Below are positions 1,539-39,291 of a DNA stretch of 64,000 nt, piece after piece. Below the pieces are notes generated by a model. That model was given only the letters and a program-made list of their open reading frames with translations, had not been told where the DNA came from and ran no database searches. How positions within the stretch are numbered: position 1 is the stretch's first letter; the number at the start of each line of letters is the position of its first letter. A program made the position numbers and the translations under genes. The stretch lies in the NCBI RefSeq assembly GCF_003581645.1, contig NZ_QXFK01000004.1:1-64000 (forward strand). Direction: 5' to 3'. The DNA is from Pelagerythrobacter aerophilus (GTDB taxonomy: Bacteria; Pseudomonadota; Alphaproteobacteria; Sphingomonadales; Sphingomonadaceae).

Positions 1539-1889
1539 TCACATCACCTGATCGAGTGCGGCCATCGTTTCCGCCAGCACGCGCCTTAGCGATAGCAAGC
1601 TCGCGCCGAGCGACATTTCCGGCCTCTCTGCCATCAGCATCATCGCCTTGAGCACCGCATTGGATTCCCGCGCGAGCAGGATGAGATGCACGCCGCTCGG
1701 GGAATTGGTGCCGCTCAACCAATTCTTCGCGGTGCGCTCGCTTACGCCTGTCCACTTCATGATCATCTTCGCACCGTTGCGCGTCGATCCGAACTCAACC
1801 TTCAGAGCAGAGGCGATCACTTGCGCAAACTCTGTGTCCGTCAGCGCATCCCGGCCGACAGGAAACGGACTGCCTTTCTTTGGAAACAT
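1539..1889 (-). CDS. Small HTH-like protein, divergent from the recombinase operon
   Basis: A 116-aa protein whose middle (about residues 36-75: GSTRNGAKMIMKWTGVSERT, then AKNWLSG) reads as a helix-turn-helix, followed by a helical tail. Proteins with this signature recur in alphaproteobacterial mobile regions, but I know of no assigned function. It lies 75 bp from the start of the serine recombinase on the opposite strand, so the two promoters share one intergenic region. A regulator of the recombinase-ParB operon is a reasonable inference. Nothing here shows what it binds. Confidence 0.65.
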   Translation of the reverse strand: MFPKKGSPFPVGRDALTDTEFAQVIASALKVEFGSTRNGAKMIMKWTGVSERTAKNWLSGTNSPSGVHLILLARESNAVLKAMMLMAERPEMSLGASLLSLRRVLAETMAALDQVM

Positions 1890-1964
1890 GTTGCCTGCCC
1901 TTTGCTGTTAGGGTCGCGGAGTAGGACGGCGAGGGAGTATTCGAGCAAGATTAAGGCGTAGCCG

Positions 1965-3536
1965 ATGGTCATTGAGTGGAGGACGGCCAATGACACCCAA
2001 TCCGGGGATCGGTCTCCTAAACGAGCCGCCGAATACGTCCGCATGTCCACCGAACATCAGAAATACTCTACCGACAATCAGGCGGCGGAAATCCGTGCCT
2101 ATGCTGATCGGCGCGGTTTCGAAATCGTGCGAACCTATGCCGACGAAGGCAAGAGCGGCCTTCGTATTGACGGGCGATCTTCACTCCAGCAGCTGCTCGC
2201 CGATATCGACAACGGCAACGTCGATTTCGAGGCAATCCTCGTTTATGATGTTAGCCGCTGGGGCCGGTTCCAGGACCCTGACGAAGCCGCCCACTATGAA
2301 CTGCGTTGCAAGCGCGCGGGGATCGCCGTTCACTACGTCGCCGAGCAGTTCGAAAACGACGGCACCATCGGTTCGTCCATCATCAAGACCGTCAAACGTG
2401 CGATGGCGGGCGAATACAGCCGCGAGCTGTCGGTCAAGGTCTTCAAGGGACAGTGCCGCCTGATCACACTGGGCTACCGCCAGGGCGGCGCAGCCGGCTT
2501 CGGCCTACGCCGGATGCTGGTCGATGAACACGGCCAGCAAAAGGGCGTGCTGGAACGCGGCGATCACAAGAGCATCGCCACCGATCGAATTGTCCTCGTC
2601 CGCGGGCCTGAGGAGGAAGTGGCCACCGTCCAGGAGATCTACCGCCAATTCGTCGAGGACCGACGATCGGAACGCGAGATCGCCCATTGGCTCAACGAGC
2701 AAGGTATCCTGTCCGACCTTGGCCGTTCGTGGACACGCGGCGCGGTCCATCAAATCCTCATCAACGACAAGTACGCCGGACACAACGTCTGGGGCCGCAC
2801 ATCCTTCAAGCTGAAGACCCGCCACGTGCGCAACGATCCATCGGAATGGATCAGGCAGGACGACGCCTTTCCCGCCATCGTCTCTCAGGCCCAGTTCGAT
2901 CAGGCCCGCTTAATCGTCGAGGAACGATCAAAACGCCTGACCGACGATGAAATGCTCGCGCTGCTCTCGGACATCTTCAAGAAGAACGGCTACCTGTCTG
3001 GCCTCATCATCGACGAGTTCGAGGACGGCCCGTCAAGCAGCGCCTACCAGTCCCGCTTCGGCAGCCTGCTGCGCGCCTATTCGCTGATCGGCTTCGTGCC
3101 CGACCACGACTACCGCTACATAGAGATCAACCGCGCTTTGCGCCGGATGCACCCCTCGGTCGTCCAAGGCGTGATCGCGGGCGTGCGTGCTGCCGGCGGA
3201 ACCGCGATCCAGAGCCTCGAAGACGACACGCTACTCGTCAACGAGGAGATCACCGCCTCCATCGTCATTGCGCGGTGCAAACTGACACCCGGCGGCAGCC
3301 GCCGTTGGAAGATCAGGCTCGACGAAAGCCTGCGCCCGGACCTCACTATCTGCGTCAGAATGGACGAGGACAATATGAACGCGCACGACTTCTATATCCT
3401 GCCGCGCATGACCCTTGCCGAAAGCGTTCTGCGGCTCGCCGACCACAATGGCCTGTCGTTCGACGCCTTCCGCTTCGACACGCTGGACGGTTTCTTCGCG
3501 CTCGCAGAGCGCGCGCCGATACCGCGGGCGGCATAG
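1965..3536 (+). CDS. Serine recombinase (resolvase/invertase type, large)
   Basis: A 523-aa protein. The N-terminal resolvase domain (about 20-165) has YVRMSTEHQ with the likely nucleophile S28, then YADEGKSG and the arginine pattern VYDVSRWGRF. A Recombinase domain follows (about 190-330: GYRQGGAAGFGLRR ... SEREIAHWLNEQG). The C-terminal 180 residues carry no cysteine cluster, so the zinc ribbon of classical large serine integrases is absent. Near residues 356-379 PSSSAYQSRFGS-LLRAYSLIGF resembles the homing-endonuclease-associated repeat. The start at 1965 is the longest; an internal start before R20 is possible. It heads a three-gene operon, with ParB-like genes 3 nt downstream. It probably excises or inverts DNA; no target site is visible. 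Confidence 0.88.
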   Translation: MVIEWRTANDTQSGDRSPKRAAEYVRMSTEHQKYSTDNQAAEIRAYADRRGFEIVRTYADEGKSGLRIDGRSSLQQLLADIDNGNVDFEAILVYDVSRWGRFQDPDEAAHYELRCKRAGIAVHYVAEQFENDGTIGSSIIKTVKRAMAGEYSRELSVKVFKGQCRLITLGYRQGGAAGFGLRRMLVDEHGQQKGVLERGDHKSIATDRIVLVRGPEEEVATVQEIYRQFVEDRRSEREIAHWLNEQGILSDLGRSWTRGAVHQILINDKYAGHNVWGRTSFKLKTRHVRNDPSEWIRQDDAFPAIVSQAQFDQARLIVEERSKRLTDDEMLALLSDIFKKNGYLSGLIIDEFEDGPSSSAYQSRFGSLLRAYSLIGFVPDHDYRYIEINRALRRMHPSVVQGVIAGVRAAGGTAIQSLEDDTLLVNEEITASIVIARCKLTPGGSRRWKIRLDESLRPDLTICVRMDEDNMNAHDFYILPRMTLAESVLRLADHNGLSFDAFRFDTLDGFFALAERAPIPRAA

Positions 3537-3539
3537 GCC

Positions 3540-4433
3540 ATGACACGCCCCGCCCAGCGCGTGGAGATGATCCCGATTGACCGGATCACCGTCGTCAATC
3601 CGCGCGTCCGCAACAAGAAGGTGTTCAAGGGGATCGTCGAGAACATCGCCGAAATCGGCCTCAAACGCCCGATCACCGTTACCAGCCGCCACGGCGAGGA
3701 TGGTCCGCTCTATGATCTTGTTTGCGGCCAAGGGCGCCTCGAAGCCTTCCGCCAGCTTGGCCAGACCGAGGTGCCCGCGCTCATTGTAACGGCCGATCAG
3801 GAAGACTGTTTCGTCGCCAGCCTGGTCGAGAATTGTGCCCGCCGCCAGCACCAGGCCGTGGACCTGTTGCAAGACATCCTCGGGATGCGCGAGCGGGGAC
3901 ATTCCGACAGCGAAATCGCCGCCATGACCGGGCTTTCCGCCAACTACGTCTATATCGTGGGAAGGCTTTTGGAACGCGGCGAACGGCGGCTCGTCGCTGC
4001 CGTCGAGGCCGGTTATCTTCCCATCTCGGTCGCTCTCGAAATCTGCGAGGCGGATGACCAGGGCGTGCAGGCCGCGCTTCACAAAGCCTATGAAGACAAT
4101 CTGCTGCGCGGCCGTGCGCTCATTGCCGCGCGCCGTTTGGTGGAAGTCCGCAAGCGCTCCGGCAAGGCCGCCAAGCTCACCAAGCTGGTCGGCAAGAACG
4201 CGGCCACCACGCCCGAAGGCCTGGTGAAAGCCTTTCAGGAGGACACCGAACGCAAGCGGATGATGATCCGAAAGACCGAGGCAACGCGCAACCGCCTCAT
4301 CTTCATCGTCGAAGCGCTGGGCCAGCTATCGAACGACGAGACATTCGTCGCACTCCTCGAAGACGAAGGTCTGGCGGCAATCCCGACGCGCCTCGCCGAG
4401 CGGATTCACAACATGAGGATCGGCGTGCAATGA
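3540..4433 (+). CDS. ParB/RepB-family protein 1
   Basis: A 297-aa protein with an N-terminal ParB domain (about 10-105) containing GQGRLEAFR at 64-71 (the GxxRxxA box) and ENCARRQ at 98-104 (an ENxxR-type box). These are the two motifs that bind the nucleotide in ParB CTPases. A KorB/ParB helix-turn-helix follows (about 110-170, SDSEIAAMTGLSANYVYIVG) and then a RepB-like C-terminus. It starts 3 nt after the recombinase stop and overlaps the next gene by 4 nt, so it is almost certainly co-translated with both. No ParA ATPase is adjacent, so plain plasmid partitioning is unlikely; guiding or loading the recombinase is an inference. Confidence 0.85.
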   Translation: MTRPAQRVEMIPIDRITVVNPRVRNKKVFKGIVENIAEIGLKRPITVTSRHGEDGPLYDLVCGQGRLEAFRQLGQTEVPALIVTADQEDCFVASLVENCARRQHQAVDLLQDILGMRERGHSDSEIAAMTGLSANYVYIVGRLLERGERRLVAAVEAGYLPISVALEICEADDQGVQAALHKAYEDNLLRGRALIAARRLVEVRKRSGKAAKLTKLVGKNAATTPEGLVKAFQEDTERKRMMIRKTEATRNRLIFIVEALGQLSNDETFVALLEDEGLAAIPTRLAERIHNMRIGVQ

Positions 4434-5323
4434 CCCGAAGCAAACAACCGCGCAAAATTAAGCTGGCCTTTGAACGGACCAGCCTGCGAATTCCGCTTGA
4501 TCAAATCAAGCTTCTGCGCGCCATGCCCGAGCCAATGAGGAGGTCGGTCAAATACGGCCAGATCGCTGCTTCCATCCGCGAAGTTGGCATCATCGAGCCG
4601 CCCGTCGTCGTCCGCTTGCCCGGAAAAGAGGAGCGATACCGGCTCCTCGACGGACATATCCGCATCGACGTGCTGAAAGAGCGCGGCGACAAGGACGTGG
4701 TCTGCCTGGTGGCGACCGACGACGAGGCGATAACCTACAACAAGCGCATCAGCCGCATGGCTATCGTTCAAGAGCACAAGATGATCCTGAAAGCGCTTGA
4801 GAAGGGCGTTTCGGAGGAGCGCCTCGCGCGGGCGCTCAACGTCAACATATCGAGCATTCGCAGCAAGCGCCGCTTGCTCGACGGCATCTGCGAGGAGGTG
4901 GCCAAGCTGCTGCAAGATCGGATGGTGCCGCTCAACACCTTTCGCGAATTGAGAAAGCTGCGTCCGATGCGACAGATTGAAGTCGCCGAAACCATGATCG
5001 CGATGAACAAGTTTTCATGGCCCTATGCCAAATCGCTGATCGCAGCCACGCCGCAGCACCTGCTCGTCAGCGACAAGCGCAAGATTGTGCGGGGCCTGAG
5101 CGATGAGCAGGTCGAGCACATGGAACGCGAAGCGACGAACATCGACCGCGAGTTCCGCATGATCGAGCAGAGCTACGGAACCGACCACCTCGATTTGGTT
5201 CTAGCGACCGGCTACCTGGCCCGCCTGACCCAGAACGTGCGCGTGGTGCATCACCTCGCCCGCCATCATCCCGAACTGCTCGCCGAGTTCCAACGGATCG
5301 TGCAGCTCCGCGACGTTGCTTAG
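4430..5323 (+). CDS. ParB/RepB-family protein 2
   Basis: A second ParB-like protein of 297 aa, the same length as its neighbour but clearly diverged. The ParB box is LLDGHIRIDVLKERG at 72-86. A helix-turn-helix occupies about 125-153 (GVSEERLARALNVNISSIRS), followed by a RepB plasmid-partition-type C-terminal domain. The ENxxR-type second box seen in protein 1 is not recognisable; the matching position reads RISRMAIVQEHKM. One protein may therefore bind nucleotide while the other serves mainly in DNA binding (inference). Its ATG overlaps the previous stop (ATGA), which indicates translational coupling. Confidence 0.85.
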   Translation: MTRSKQPRKIKLAFERTSLRIPLDQIKLLRAMPEPMRRSVKYGQIAASIREVGIIEPPVVVRLPGKEERYRLLDGHIRIDVLKERGDKDVVCLVATDDEAITYNKRISRMAIVQEHKMILKALEKGVSEERLARALNVNISSIRSKRRLLDGICEEVAKLLQDRMVPLNTFRELRKLRPMRQIEVAETMIAMNKFSWPYAKSLIAATPQHLLVSDKRKIVRGLSDEQVEHMEREATNIDREFRMIEQSYGTDHLDLVLATGYLARLTQNVRVVHHLARHHPELLAEFQRIVQLRDVA

Positions 5324-5332
5324 CCAAGCGCG

Positions 5333-5674
5333 TTAGGCAGCCAGCGAGGGCGGCGTCCGCCGTGGCGGACGCGCGCGCGGCGCGACGGAAATCTTCACCC
5401 GGACATCCTGATTGAGCCGGTCGAGAATACGCATCAGCCGATCAATGGTGAACCGGTCAAGCTTGACCTGGCGAATGCGGGAAAAGTCCGCCGCTGCAAT
5501 GCCGGTGCGCGCCTCGGCCTCGCGCACCGTCAGCCGCTCGGTATCGAGCGCCTTGACGATTTCGGCGGCGAGGATCGCGCGGAGCTGGCGCAGGCTCGCA
5601 TCGGGCGCGCCAAAATCGGCAAAGACATTGCCGGAGCCGCGAACCAGCTCGAAATCATCATCTCGATCAGTCAT
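5333..5674 (-). CDS. HigA-type antitoxin, XRE-family HTH
   Basis: A 113-aa protein with an XRE-like helix-turn-helix at about 47-90 (LTVREAEARTGIAAADFSRI), of the short HTH_37 type paired with Gp49-like toxins. A basic arginine/proline-rich tail follows. It is the downstream gene of a two-gene operon and overlaps the toxin gene by 8 nt, the toxin-first order typical of HigBA. It should neutralise the toxin and repress the operon. It converges on the ParB operon with only 9 nt between the stops. Confidence 0.82.
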   Translation of the reverse strand: MTDRDDDFELVRGSGNVFADFGAPDASLRQLRAILAAEIVKALDTERLTVREAEARTGIAAADFSRIRQVKLDRFTIDRLMRILDRLNQDVRVKISVAPRARPPRRTPPSLAA

Positions 5675-6065: not shown

Positions 6066-7304
6066 TCAAGCCACGGCCGTGAGCGGAACTTCGCGATCGA
6101 GCACTTCGACCGCCTTCAGCTTGTGACCAGGCGCGAGGTGCGCATAACGCAGCGTCATCGCATAGTCGCTGTGCCCGAGCAGTTCGCGAACGGTGTTGAG
6201 ATCGACTCCGCCCATCACCAGCCGCGAGGCAAAATGATGGCGCATGTCGTGCCAGCGGAATTGGGTAATGCCCGCATCCTTGAGCAGCCGCCGCCACGCG
6301 GTGTTGACCTGGCCGAACCGCTCGCCGTCATCGTTGACGAAAACCCGTCCCTCCTGCGTCGACGATTGCTCCCGCCAGCCTTGTAGAACAAGTGTCGCCT
6401 CGCGGTTGAGCGGGATATGCCGGGTGCGCCTCGATTTCGCGGTCGCGCCGGTCACCGTTAGGACCCGCCGTTCGAGATCGACGTTCGACCAGTCGAGGTC
6501 GAACAGTTCACCCCGCCTGGCGCCCGTGTTGATCGAGAGGAGAACTAGAGGCTTGAGGTGATCGGTGAAGGCCAAGGGCCGTAGGCTGGGCAGCTGAACG
6601 TAACCCCTTTCGCGCCGCCAATAGTTGGCAGAATCGCGTTCGGTGCGCCGGCGTTCCTCGCGCGCATCGAGTGCCCTGCGCAGCCAGGTTTCCTCGTCGT
6701 CGCTGAGAAAGCGCACCTTGCGGCAATCGTCGGTGCGCGACTTCTTGACCTTGGCCAAGGGACTTGCCGCGATCACCTCCCAATCGACCGCACGATTGAA
6801 CACCGCCTTGATCGACGCAATGTCTCGGTTGATCGTCTCAAGGCTGAGGCCACGTGCGATCTCGCCCGCGCGCCAGCGCTCAACGTCGAGCCCAGTCACT
6901 TCGTCGAGCCGCTTGCCGAGCAGCGCCTTGAAGGCGGTCTTCAGCCGATTGAGATTTTGCGCGTGCGCCCTTTGCGTGGCCCTTGCCCACGTCGCATAGT
7001 CGCCATCGAGAAAGCCGCGCAAAGTCGGCACTTCCTTCTTCGGCTTGCGCGCCGCGATGGGATCGATGCCGCGATAGACATCGGCGAGGATCGCGCGGGC
7101 GCTCTCGCGCGCTTCGGCCAGACCGAGAGCATCCGCCCTCCCCAGCCAGACGCGTTTGCCGCGCGCATACTCGCAGTAGAACGATTTCACCCCGTTCGGA
7201 GTGACGCGCAGGATCAGCCCTTTGAGGCGTGTGTCCCGGCAATCTTTCCGCTTGGCCGGAAGCGGCATTTTTTCGATCATCGCTTGGGTCAGAACCGCTC
7301 GCAT
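6066..7304 (-). CDS. Tyrosine-family integrase of the island
   Basis: A 412-aa site-specific recombinase with an N-terminal arm-binding region, a SAM-like core-binding domain (about 94-190) and a catalytic domain. Visible catalytic residues are R263 (NTGARRGEL), K290 (ATAKSRRTRHIPL), H352 and R355 (WHDMRHHFAS), H378 (LLGHSD) and Y387 (LRYAHL); the set is complete. The start at 7304 is preferred over an ATG at 7394 because GGAGGG lies about 7 nt upstream and the homologous N-terminus begins MRAVLTQ. It lies 187 bp from a tRNA-Pro fragment and reads away from it, the usual arrangement for an integrase beside its attachment site. Confidence 0.93.
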   Translation of the reverse strand: MRAVLTQAMIEKMPLPAKRKDCRDTRLKGLILRVTPNGVKSFYCEYARGKRVWLGRADALGLAEARESARAILADVYRGIDPIAARKPKKEVPTLRGFLDGDYATWARATQRAHAQNLNRLKTAFKALLGKRLDEVTGLDVERWRAGEIARGLSLETINRDIASIKAVFNRAVDWEVIAASPLAKVKKSRTDDCRKVRFLSDDEETWLRRALDAREERRRTERDSANYWRRERGYVQLPSLRPLAFTDHLKPLVLLSINTGARRGELFDLDWSNVDLERRVLTVTGATAKSRRTRHIPLNREATLVLQGWREQSSTQEGRVFVNDDGERFGQVNTAWRRLLKDAGITQFRWHDMRHHFASRLVMGGVDLNTVRELLGHSDYAMTLRYAHLAPGHKLKAVEVLDREVPLTAVA

Positions 7305-7490
7305 GCCACACCCTCCGCTTCCGCTGAAAATCGCTCTGGTGGTGCACTGGTGGTGCAACTTCATGCATCGCAGCGGAACATAGGGAGACCGCATGGAACA
7401 TGAAATATGCTCCTTAACTACCTGTTATAGGCTGATAAAACAAGCTTTTTAGGTTGCGCGACGAGGCATACCAGACCCCCAATTTTTCGG

Positions 7491-38247: not shown

Positions 38248-39291
38248 ATGGAATTGCTTGGCTTGGCTGAAGTGGCCGACGTTCTCAGGGTGAGCAAGCA
38301 GAACGTCGCGAATTGGCGTGCCCGTCGTCAGGACTTCCCTCCACCCGTAGCAAACCTTAAAAGCGGGCCAGTCTGGAGTACGGACGCCATCGTTGAGTGG
38401 GCGGCGCGGGAAGGTCTAGAGATTGACCCACCAAAAGCGAGTGCAGCCAGTCAGCAAAATGAGACCCGCGCGACCGTCGTTGCAATGATGAACATGAAGG
38501 GCGGCGTGGGCAAAAGCACCTTGGCAGCAAATCTGGGATGGTACGGCGCCGCCAGACTCGACCATCGAGTCTTATTGGTCGACCTAGATCCACAGTTTAA
38601 CCTAAGCCAGTACGTATTGGGAGTGCAGCGCTTCGAAGAGCTACTCAACTCTGATGAGCCGACCATCGATGATCTGTTCCGTCCGATGACCGGAGACAAG
38701 CCTCCGGTCCATGCTTCCGAGCTAATACAACAAGTTACAAATTACGATGATGGTTCATGCCTGCATTTGATACCCGCTCGACTTGAGCTCGCATTTAATG
38801 TTCGCTTGGCTACCGAACGCGCACACATCCTCCGAGATTCGCTGGAGGACGTAATAACCAATTATGACGTCATAATTCTTGACTGCTCTCCGACGGAAAG
38901 CATCCTAACTTGGGCCGCTTATTATGCTTCTGACTATATCGTCGTGCCAGTAAAACCGGAATTTTTATCCACGATCGGACTACCTCTTCTCATAAAATCG
39001 GTAGATGCGTTCAAAGCTCAACATCCGGCTGATCGTTACCCAGACATCCTTGGCATTATTTTTAACGACAGCTCCGACAAGGTTGAACACCTGAAATCAA
39101 AACGGTTTGTCAGGGAAACCGCTCATGAATTTAATATTCCGATATTTGATAATGAGATCAGTCATTCGGACTCATATCCCGCAGGCGCCCGTAAAGGCCA
39201 ACCCATTTTTTGGACCAACAATGCTCGAGATCTGAAAAAATCGGAATTAGCAAGGGCCGCTAGGGAATTTTATCAGAAAGTTGGGTTATGA
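38248..39291 (+). CDS. HTH-ParA fusion ATPase
   Basis: A 347-aa protein. Residues 1-55 form a MerR/AlpA-like DNA-binding domain (LLGLAEVADVLRVSKQNVAN, WRARRQDFPPP). A ParA/MinD ATPase follows: deviant Walker A KGGVGKST at 84-91, LLVDLDPQFNLSQY, IILDCSPTES and VVPVKPEFLSTIGLPLLIKS. ParA proteins position DNA or protein cargo by ATP-driven binding. The start at 38248 is chosen because the domain begins at MELLGLAE. The region is visibly AT-richer than its neighbours, which suggests transfer. Its stop overlaps the next start by 4 nt. Confidence 0.85.
   Translation: MELLGLAEVADVLRVSKQNVANWRARRQDFPPPVANLKSGPVWSTDAIVEWAAREGLEIDPPKASAASQQNETRATVVAMMNMKGGVGKSTLAANLGWYGAARLDHRVLLVDLDPQFNLSQYVLGVQRFEELLNSDEPTIDDLFRPMTGDKPPVHASELIQQVTNYDDGSCLHLIPARLELAFNVRLATERAHILRDSLEDVITNYDVIILDCSPTESILTWAAYYASDYIVVPVKPEFLSTIGLPLLIKSVDAFKAQHPADRYPDILGIIFNDSSDKVEHLKSKRFVRETAHEFNIPIFDNEISHSDSYPAGARKGQPIFWTNNARDLKKSELARAAREFYQKVGL

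Follow-up and report, generated by a model that had tools for sequence, protein, structure and literature searches.

A conserved three-gene unit on proteobacterial mobile elements, in which a serine recombinase gene is followed by genes for two different ParB-type proteins

ParB clamps move or organise DNA together with ParA, or silence and activate genes, and orphan ParBs such as Noc carry the ParB-CTPase fold outside parAB operons. Large serine recombinases, such as the phiC31, Bxb1 and SPbeta integrases, combine a catalytic domain bearing the catalytic serine with a recombinase domain. IS110 transposases have a recombinase gene with a structured bridge RNA beside it, and three recombination genes, accompanied by cargo for defence, characterise the Gamma-Mobile-Trio elements. 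Here we describe a locus near the start of a 64,000-nucleotide stretch of Pelagerythrobacter aerophilus DNA (contig NZ_QXFK01000004.1, positions 1 to 64,000; the window), in which the gene of a serine recombinase (Rec) is followed by genes for two ParB/RepB-type proteins (PB1 and PB2) and is preceded by a divergent regulator gene (HTH, for helix-turn-helix). The unit is a real and widespread module, new in composition and undescribed in the open-access literature, where our search found no paper on the trio (most subscription-journal papers and preprints were outside its scope), and to all appearances it is a mobile-DNA module of a new kind. A sequence-only reading of the window had proposed three adjacent genes with a 3-nucleotide gap (Rec/PB1), a 4-nucleotide overlap (PB1/PB2) and a divergent HTH gene, and all four genes were indeed found where it had placed them:

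1539..1889, minus strand: divergent HTH-type regulator, 116 residues (open reading frame; weak HTH_3 match; phrog_23106)
1890..1964, no strand: divergent intergenic stretch, presumed control region of HTH and Rec (sequence)
1965..3536, plus strand: Rec, serine recombinase, 523 residues (Pfam Resolvase 1.4e-22 and Recombinase 1.7e-24), with the catalytic domain at about residues 21-156, the Recombinase domain at 216-321 and an unmatched C-terminal region at about 330-523
3540..4433, plus strand: PB1, 297 residues (ParB_N 2.2e-8, RepB PF07506 9e-16; NPR, GxxR and ENxxR boxes)
4430..5323, plus strand: PB2, 297 residues, a PB1 paralogue (RepB 1e-41; ParB_N match under the cut-off; GxxR and a divergent box III)

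The locus shares features with each of these systems. As in ParABS partition systems of the RepB branch (PF07506), ParB_N and RepB domains are present and the boxes of PB1 are those of Spo0J and Noc; unlike in ParABS, no ParA and no ParA-binding-type motif were found among the copies searched, there are two different ParBs, and the operon contains a recombinase. The two proteins resemble orphan ParBs in lying outside a parAB operon, and differ from them in being two paralogues tied to a recombinase. Rec has the domains and catalytic serine of the phiC31, Bxb1 and SPbeta integrases; unlike these, it lacks a CxxC motif after residue 300, has a C-terminal part of its own and ParB genes in its operon, and is often not the integrase of its carrier. 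In many copies the operon adjoins a probable structured RNA, much as the IS110 recombinase gene adjoins its bridge RNA; here, however, the recombinase is of another class, the loops are short with no long variable guide loop, and some clades do without the RNA. Gamma-Mobile-Trio elements likewise combine three recombination genes with defence genes as cargo, but no Gmt model matches the trio proteins, and the GmtZ model matches only the tyrosine integrase of the island that carries the window copy. NCBIfam gave matches under the cut-off only, including CcrB for Rec and ParB models for PB1 and PB2, and a PADLOC scan of HTH, Rec, PB1 and PB2 returned 0 families at 1e-3.

Islands, plasmids and prophages of Alpha-, Beta- and Gammaproteobacteria carry further copies of the unit, and the gene order was the same wherever all three genes were seen. 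When genome contigs were scanned with PB2 alone as the query, 31 loci were obtained, and at 25 of them Rec, PB1 and PB2 follow each other in this order (the Rec of L023 being a fragment); of the remaining six, L005, L018, L024 and L031 begin at a contig edge, and L030 and L034 are PB2 remnants. The three genes thus form a conserved unit, and the rare co-occurrence that would have spoken against the sequence-only reading was not seen. In a second set of 289 genomes of the window's class, which overlaps with the first (G140, for example, contains L026), 19 genomes had a Rec match, at 25 places, 21 of them full-length. PB1 and PB2 were present at 19 of these 21 places; at L070 PB1 is followed by the contig edge, and L061 (about 40% identical) has neither. 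Plasmids gave PB2 matches in 109 records, and in seven of the eight that we opened an annotated recombinase precedes two partitioning or RepB-type proteins in the same order, the eighth being unannotated there and without a Rec match. All three genes were also detected by tblastn in one phage record, which is unannotated, and at 36 of 58 loci on viral contigs; the remaining 22 mostly begin within PB1 or PB2 or shortly ahead of one of them. The HTH gene adjoins Rec in 23 of the 25 genome loci and 21 of the 36 viral loci that have all three genes. Between the window and most sphingomonad copies, DNA similarity runs from the HTH stop to the PB2 stop, so the unit is inherited in one piece within changing surroundings.

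Rec combines the resolvase domain PF00239 with the Recombinase domain PF07508, and its catalytic serine, S28, is kept in 80 of 81 aligned rows, the last having a gap. That Rec lacks the usual zinc ribbon, as had been proposed, holds across the alignment: no CxxC motif occurs after residue 300 in any of the 81 rows, CxxC being the one ribbon pattern looked for. Over about 320 residues the structure model (mean predicted local distance difference test score, pLDDT, 70; predicted template modelling score, pTM, 0.44) is that of a large serine recombinase, with the SPbeta integrase as best Foldseek match (1.3e-12). Residues 330-523 had no convincing structural counterpart, which is weak evidence given the low model confidence. 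In two genomes of one genus, an extra N-terminal Rec fragment lies directly before the full gene (G185:C110:6620-7027 and G279:C23:66469-66897).

The two ParB-type proteins are related over most of their length (hhalign 96.5%) and differ in the boxes that the sequence-only reading had assigned to both of them. In PB1 the assignment stands, G63, R66, E97, N98 and R101 being invariant in 89 of 89 rows, so that GxxR and ENxxR are both present; in PB2 only GxxR does (86 of 87 rows), and ENxxR was found at box III in 0 of 87. A HMMER alignment to Noc places the TYNKR(I/V) stretch of PB2 on IENLQR, whereby E is replaced by Y or F in 83 of 87 rows, N is kept in all 87 and R is replaced by I, V or L in all 87; hhalign places this stretch differently. 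An initial view that PB2 had lost both E and N of box III was dropped, since the alignment to Noc puts the invariant N104 on that N. The PB2 structure model had a pLDDT of 72 and a pTM of 0.43. Intact boxes in PB1 beside a divergent box III in PB2 suggest that the two proteins may form a mixed complex.

The absence of a ParA partner was borne out as well. With four PF13614 frames of the window's own genome as queries, one of them Soj-like, tblastn gave no hit at 1e-5 in 98 loci (the search had no positive control, and a very distant ParA could escape it), and a ParA with a parS-type partition locus was not seen as a regular companion of the unit. No PB1 row (0 of 89) and no PB2 row (0 of 87) has, within its first 60 residues, the ParA-binding-type motif of the ParB N terminus that a recent ParB survey (PMC12704722) names, and two PB1 rows have it elsewhere; the words recombinase, resolvase and RepB do not occur in the main text of that survey. 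In the window, a ParA-family (PF13614) match at 38473-39021, within a 373-residue frame, lies 33 kilobases (kb) from the trio and past the end of the island.

In many copies a conserved non-coding stretch of about 110 nucleotides lies directly 3' of PB2 on the same strand, for example at L088:5571-5690. We aligned 45 of the 49 copies found through a sequence anchor, leaving out three that are identical over the first 140 nucleotides and L085. For these 45 rows RNAalifold predicted 26 pairs, 10 of them with compensatory changes; under a structure that we specified, which was derived from the same sequences that it was tested on, 98.5% of the cells pair and 10 pairs show changes on both sides. 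Cells with such both-side changes numbered 62, as compared to 14.2 ± 2.9 in shuffled alignments and at most 9 with slid partners; they count sequences and not events, and the shuffles ignore relatedness, which the slid control keeps. For one measure, further pair types, 14 of 500 shuffles came up to the observed value. The stretch is mostly invariant, and no variable loop spans more than about a dozen columns of the 45-row alignment. Since a structured single-stranded DNA site would covary too, a structured RNA is the likelier reading of this stretch and not a proven one. Rfam gave no match at its cut-offs behind PB2 in eight loci, and a permissive scan of one locus gave chance-level matches only.

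Of 99 sources, 53 have a match to the model of this putative RNA, each time directly after PB2, and among the 289 genomes there were 15 matches in 12 genomes, all 15 adjoining PB2 or part of it. At L133-L136 only a partial PB2 lies beside the RNA, in three of them the PB2 3' end. The RNA is absent from the window and from 15 other sources of its Rec clade or nearest kin (L004-L014, L029, L030, L032 and L033); a candidate in the window copy, with a best score of 7 bits and an E value of 0.47, was dismissed as noise, and filters-off scans of five RNA-less viral loci gave weak matches only (E value of 0.03 or more). A Sphingobium plasmid copy of another clade (L038) does have it. On viral contigs a sequence pattern found 43 stretches, of which 32 lie beside PB2 and six within 160 nucleotides of the edge of the sequence analysed, while no PB2 was found for five. 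These five, with the RNA turned to the plus strand, lie at positions 480 of L164, 2199 of L182, 950 of L183, 3790 of L159 and 9489 of L162. In L182 and L164 the RNA is preceded by a stretch similar to the control region between HTH and Rec in other copies, with scores of 69 and 52 as compared to at most 26 and 22 for random or shuffled stretches; the other three showed no such resemblance (29 versus 27, 23 versus 26 and 24 versus 25 for the controls).

The reading that we favour, as possible rather than probable, sets the unit apart from partition systems and, in many carriers, from the integrase: it would be an accessory of mobile elements, serving in conflict or maintenance, and a pair of ParBs without ParA would place the recombinase on DNA. 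The HTH protein would repress the divergent promoter; a mixed PB1-PB2 complex of ParB type would load on DNA with nucleotide bound by PB1 and hold Rec there; and Rec would break or recombine DNA to the carrier's benefit, most likely in conflicts among mobile elements or in retention of the element itself. The RNA, which the window copy lacks, may be a further working or controlling part, because a few viral copies have it without PB2. A more elaborate proposal, which we consider improbable, goes further along these lines: a nucleotide-switched ParB heteropair and the RNA would together load and control Rec as a new class of ribonucleoprotein recombination machine, with the RNA able to act in trans, which would explain why some viral copies retain it though the operon is missing, as an antidote or non-autonomous partner. 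If the favoured reading is true, the ParB switch would have a new use in this conserved and widespread partnership with a serine recombinase, and a Rec directed by ParB loading could be of relevance to genome engineering. Of interest too is the covarying RNA family, which Rfam does not match and which is linked to a recombinase operon but at times persists in the absence of that operon. As the parts of the unit are small, direct tests should be easy.

Several observations weigh against this placement of Rec by a ParB pair as an accessory function. The RNA is missing from the window's Rec clade and is therefore not needed everywhere. In one alignment the invariant N104 of PB2 falls on the N of box III, so that PB2 may not be inactive. 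No DNA site common to all copies was found by exact site, end repeats or palindromes upstream of Rec. Specifically, the palindrome near the operon that the sequence-only reading had led us to look for in all copies did not emerge: upstream of Rec, the one region tested, 17 of 84 loci had one as compared to 12.8 ± 3.4 in random stretches. A palindrome at the start of the HTH gene, visible by eye in several clades and considered as an autoregulatory site, was likewise given up as overall not over-represented. The enrichment of defence genes near the unit is an impression from raw counts without a matched control of island genes, and some of the PADLOC matches behind it are to broad helicase or methyltransferase models. 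Finally, the sharp borders of the unit and the direct repeats seen in Agrobacterium also fit a cassette that moves by itself.

Such a selfish cassette, moved by its own recombinase between sites on mobile elements and leaving the PB2-less RNAs as non-autonomous remnants, we regard as doubtful, even though the comparison of plasmids brings it some support. The units of pAtC58 and pAt1D1460 are 96.9% alike, lie at different places with different flanks, and are bounded in both plasmids by direct repeats of a site of about 28 base pairs near GGTTCRANTCCNNTCAAGG, which resembles a tRNA T arm. In the opened plasmids, similarity to the Fic or AbiEii side of pAtC58 ends at such a site and other genes follow. 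Borders elsewhere point the same way, as similarity in most sphingomonad pairs begins and ends at the two stop codons given above, and that of some RNA-bearing pairs stops shortly after the RNA. However, by eye the sphingomonad copies share no terminal half-site beyond these stop codons, and the pAtC58 search gave no record in which the flanks are joined without the unit: of 31 further records, assigned by their best place, 24 matched the Fic side only (22 of them up to the site) and seven the AbiEii side only. Of 17 records, 11 contain the exact pattern GGTTCRANNNNNNTCAAGG, at 31 places in total (27 forward, four reverse; 0 for reversed-pattern controls); it is present on eight plasmids without a Rec match and at none of the other trio loci examined. 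The T-arm-like site was accordingly rejected as a general target of Rec, and the unit is one of several cassettes on these plasmids. A blind scan for direct repeats at copy ends ranked the Agrobacterium copy first at 12.0, with a shuffled maximum of 12.5, and no other copy was convincing, so that the site is clear from the plasmid comparison only. The site stands in direct repeat at gene-cassette joints of Agrobacterium plasmids (L146:10940 and 14822; L149:3439, 7323 and 12879).

That the unit maintains its carrier, with Rec resolving multimers or keeping the carrier circular and the ParB pair acting as a ParA-less centromere complex, seems rather unlikely to us. The RepB/ParB homology and the occurrence on plasmids and excisable elements agree with it, but viral contigs and chromosomal islands carry the unit as well, a 30-kb Paraburkholderia plasmid already has its own replication initiation and ParA-family genes (the ParA about 20 kb from the unit), and the ParA-binding-type motif named in the survey is missing from the N termini of all PB1 and PB2 rows. 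We consider it very unlikely that Rec is the integration module of the carrier, with PB1 and PB2 setting its direction in the manner of recombination directionality factors. By fold, the closest matches of Rec are the SPbeta, phiC31 and Bxb1 integrases, the unit lies at one end of several viral records, and in L088 and L094 a tRNA lies at the trio end and the record contains neither a tyrosine integrase nor a second large serine recombinase. Nevertheless, another integrase is present in the window's island and in 23 of the 50 viral records examined (8 of the 58 loci were excluded; the records are fragments with predicted borders), which led us to discard Rec as carrier integrase in general: a tyrosine integrase above the cut-off is present in 12 of them, and a large serine recombinase other than Rec in a further 11, eight of which have it at a distance of over 40 kb from the trio. 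A supposed likeness of the phiC31 directionality factor gp3 to ParB, which would have cast the ParBs in that role, was rejected, as gp3 matches Gp3-like PF18897 only and is not ParB-like in Pfam, PHROGs or PDB sequences, and neither PB1 nor PB2 matches PF18897 in Pfam. Tail, terminase and baseplate families among the neighbours at viral loci indicate that at least part of these records are real prophages; the one portal family tried matched in 5 of the 50.

Around 26 non-viral loci, 180 open reading frames met our distance and length rule, and 113 of them, from 23 loci, were scanned. Thirteen of the 113 match a tyrosine integrase family, and the PADLOC matches include DRT3b, DrmA/DrmD and AbiE. 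Around 20 viral loci, 134 open reading frames were aligned and 70 of them scanned with PADLOC, the matches including three type III methyltransferases and two Fic proteins (SoFic). Toxin-antitoxin genes are also found among the neighbours, and many other neighbours are ordinary genes.

In the window, which starts at the first base of its contig, the trio is followed by these features outside the unit:

5333..5674, minus strand: HigA-like antitoxin (HTH_37; Pfam), with matches in L004-L007 and L030
5667..6026, minus strand: HigB/Gp49-like toxin of a HigBA-type pair (Pfam)
6066..7394, minus strand: tyrosine integrase of the carrier island (Pfam), with close relatives in L005-L007 and L030
7503..7536, plus strand: tRNA 3' end adjoining the integrase, presumed attachment end of the island (sequence match)

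Elsewhere in the genome, 7503-7536 has a single match, which differs at two positions and forms the 3' end of a tRNA-Pro, and the integrase together with the tRNA end is common to L006 and L007. Taken together, the unit, the HigBA-type pair, the tyrosine integrase and the tRNA end suggest that the window copy lies on an island with an integrase of its own. Close to the contig start, an IS110-family transposase gene at 268-1356 is perhaps the cause of the contig break.

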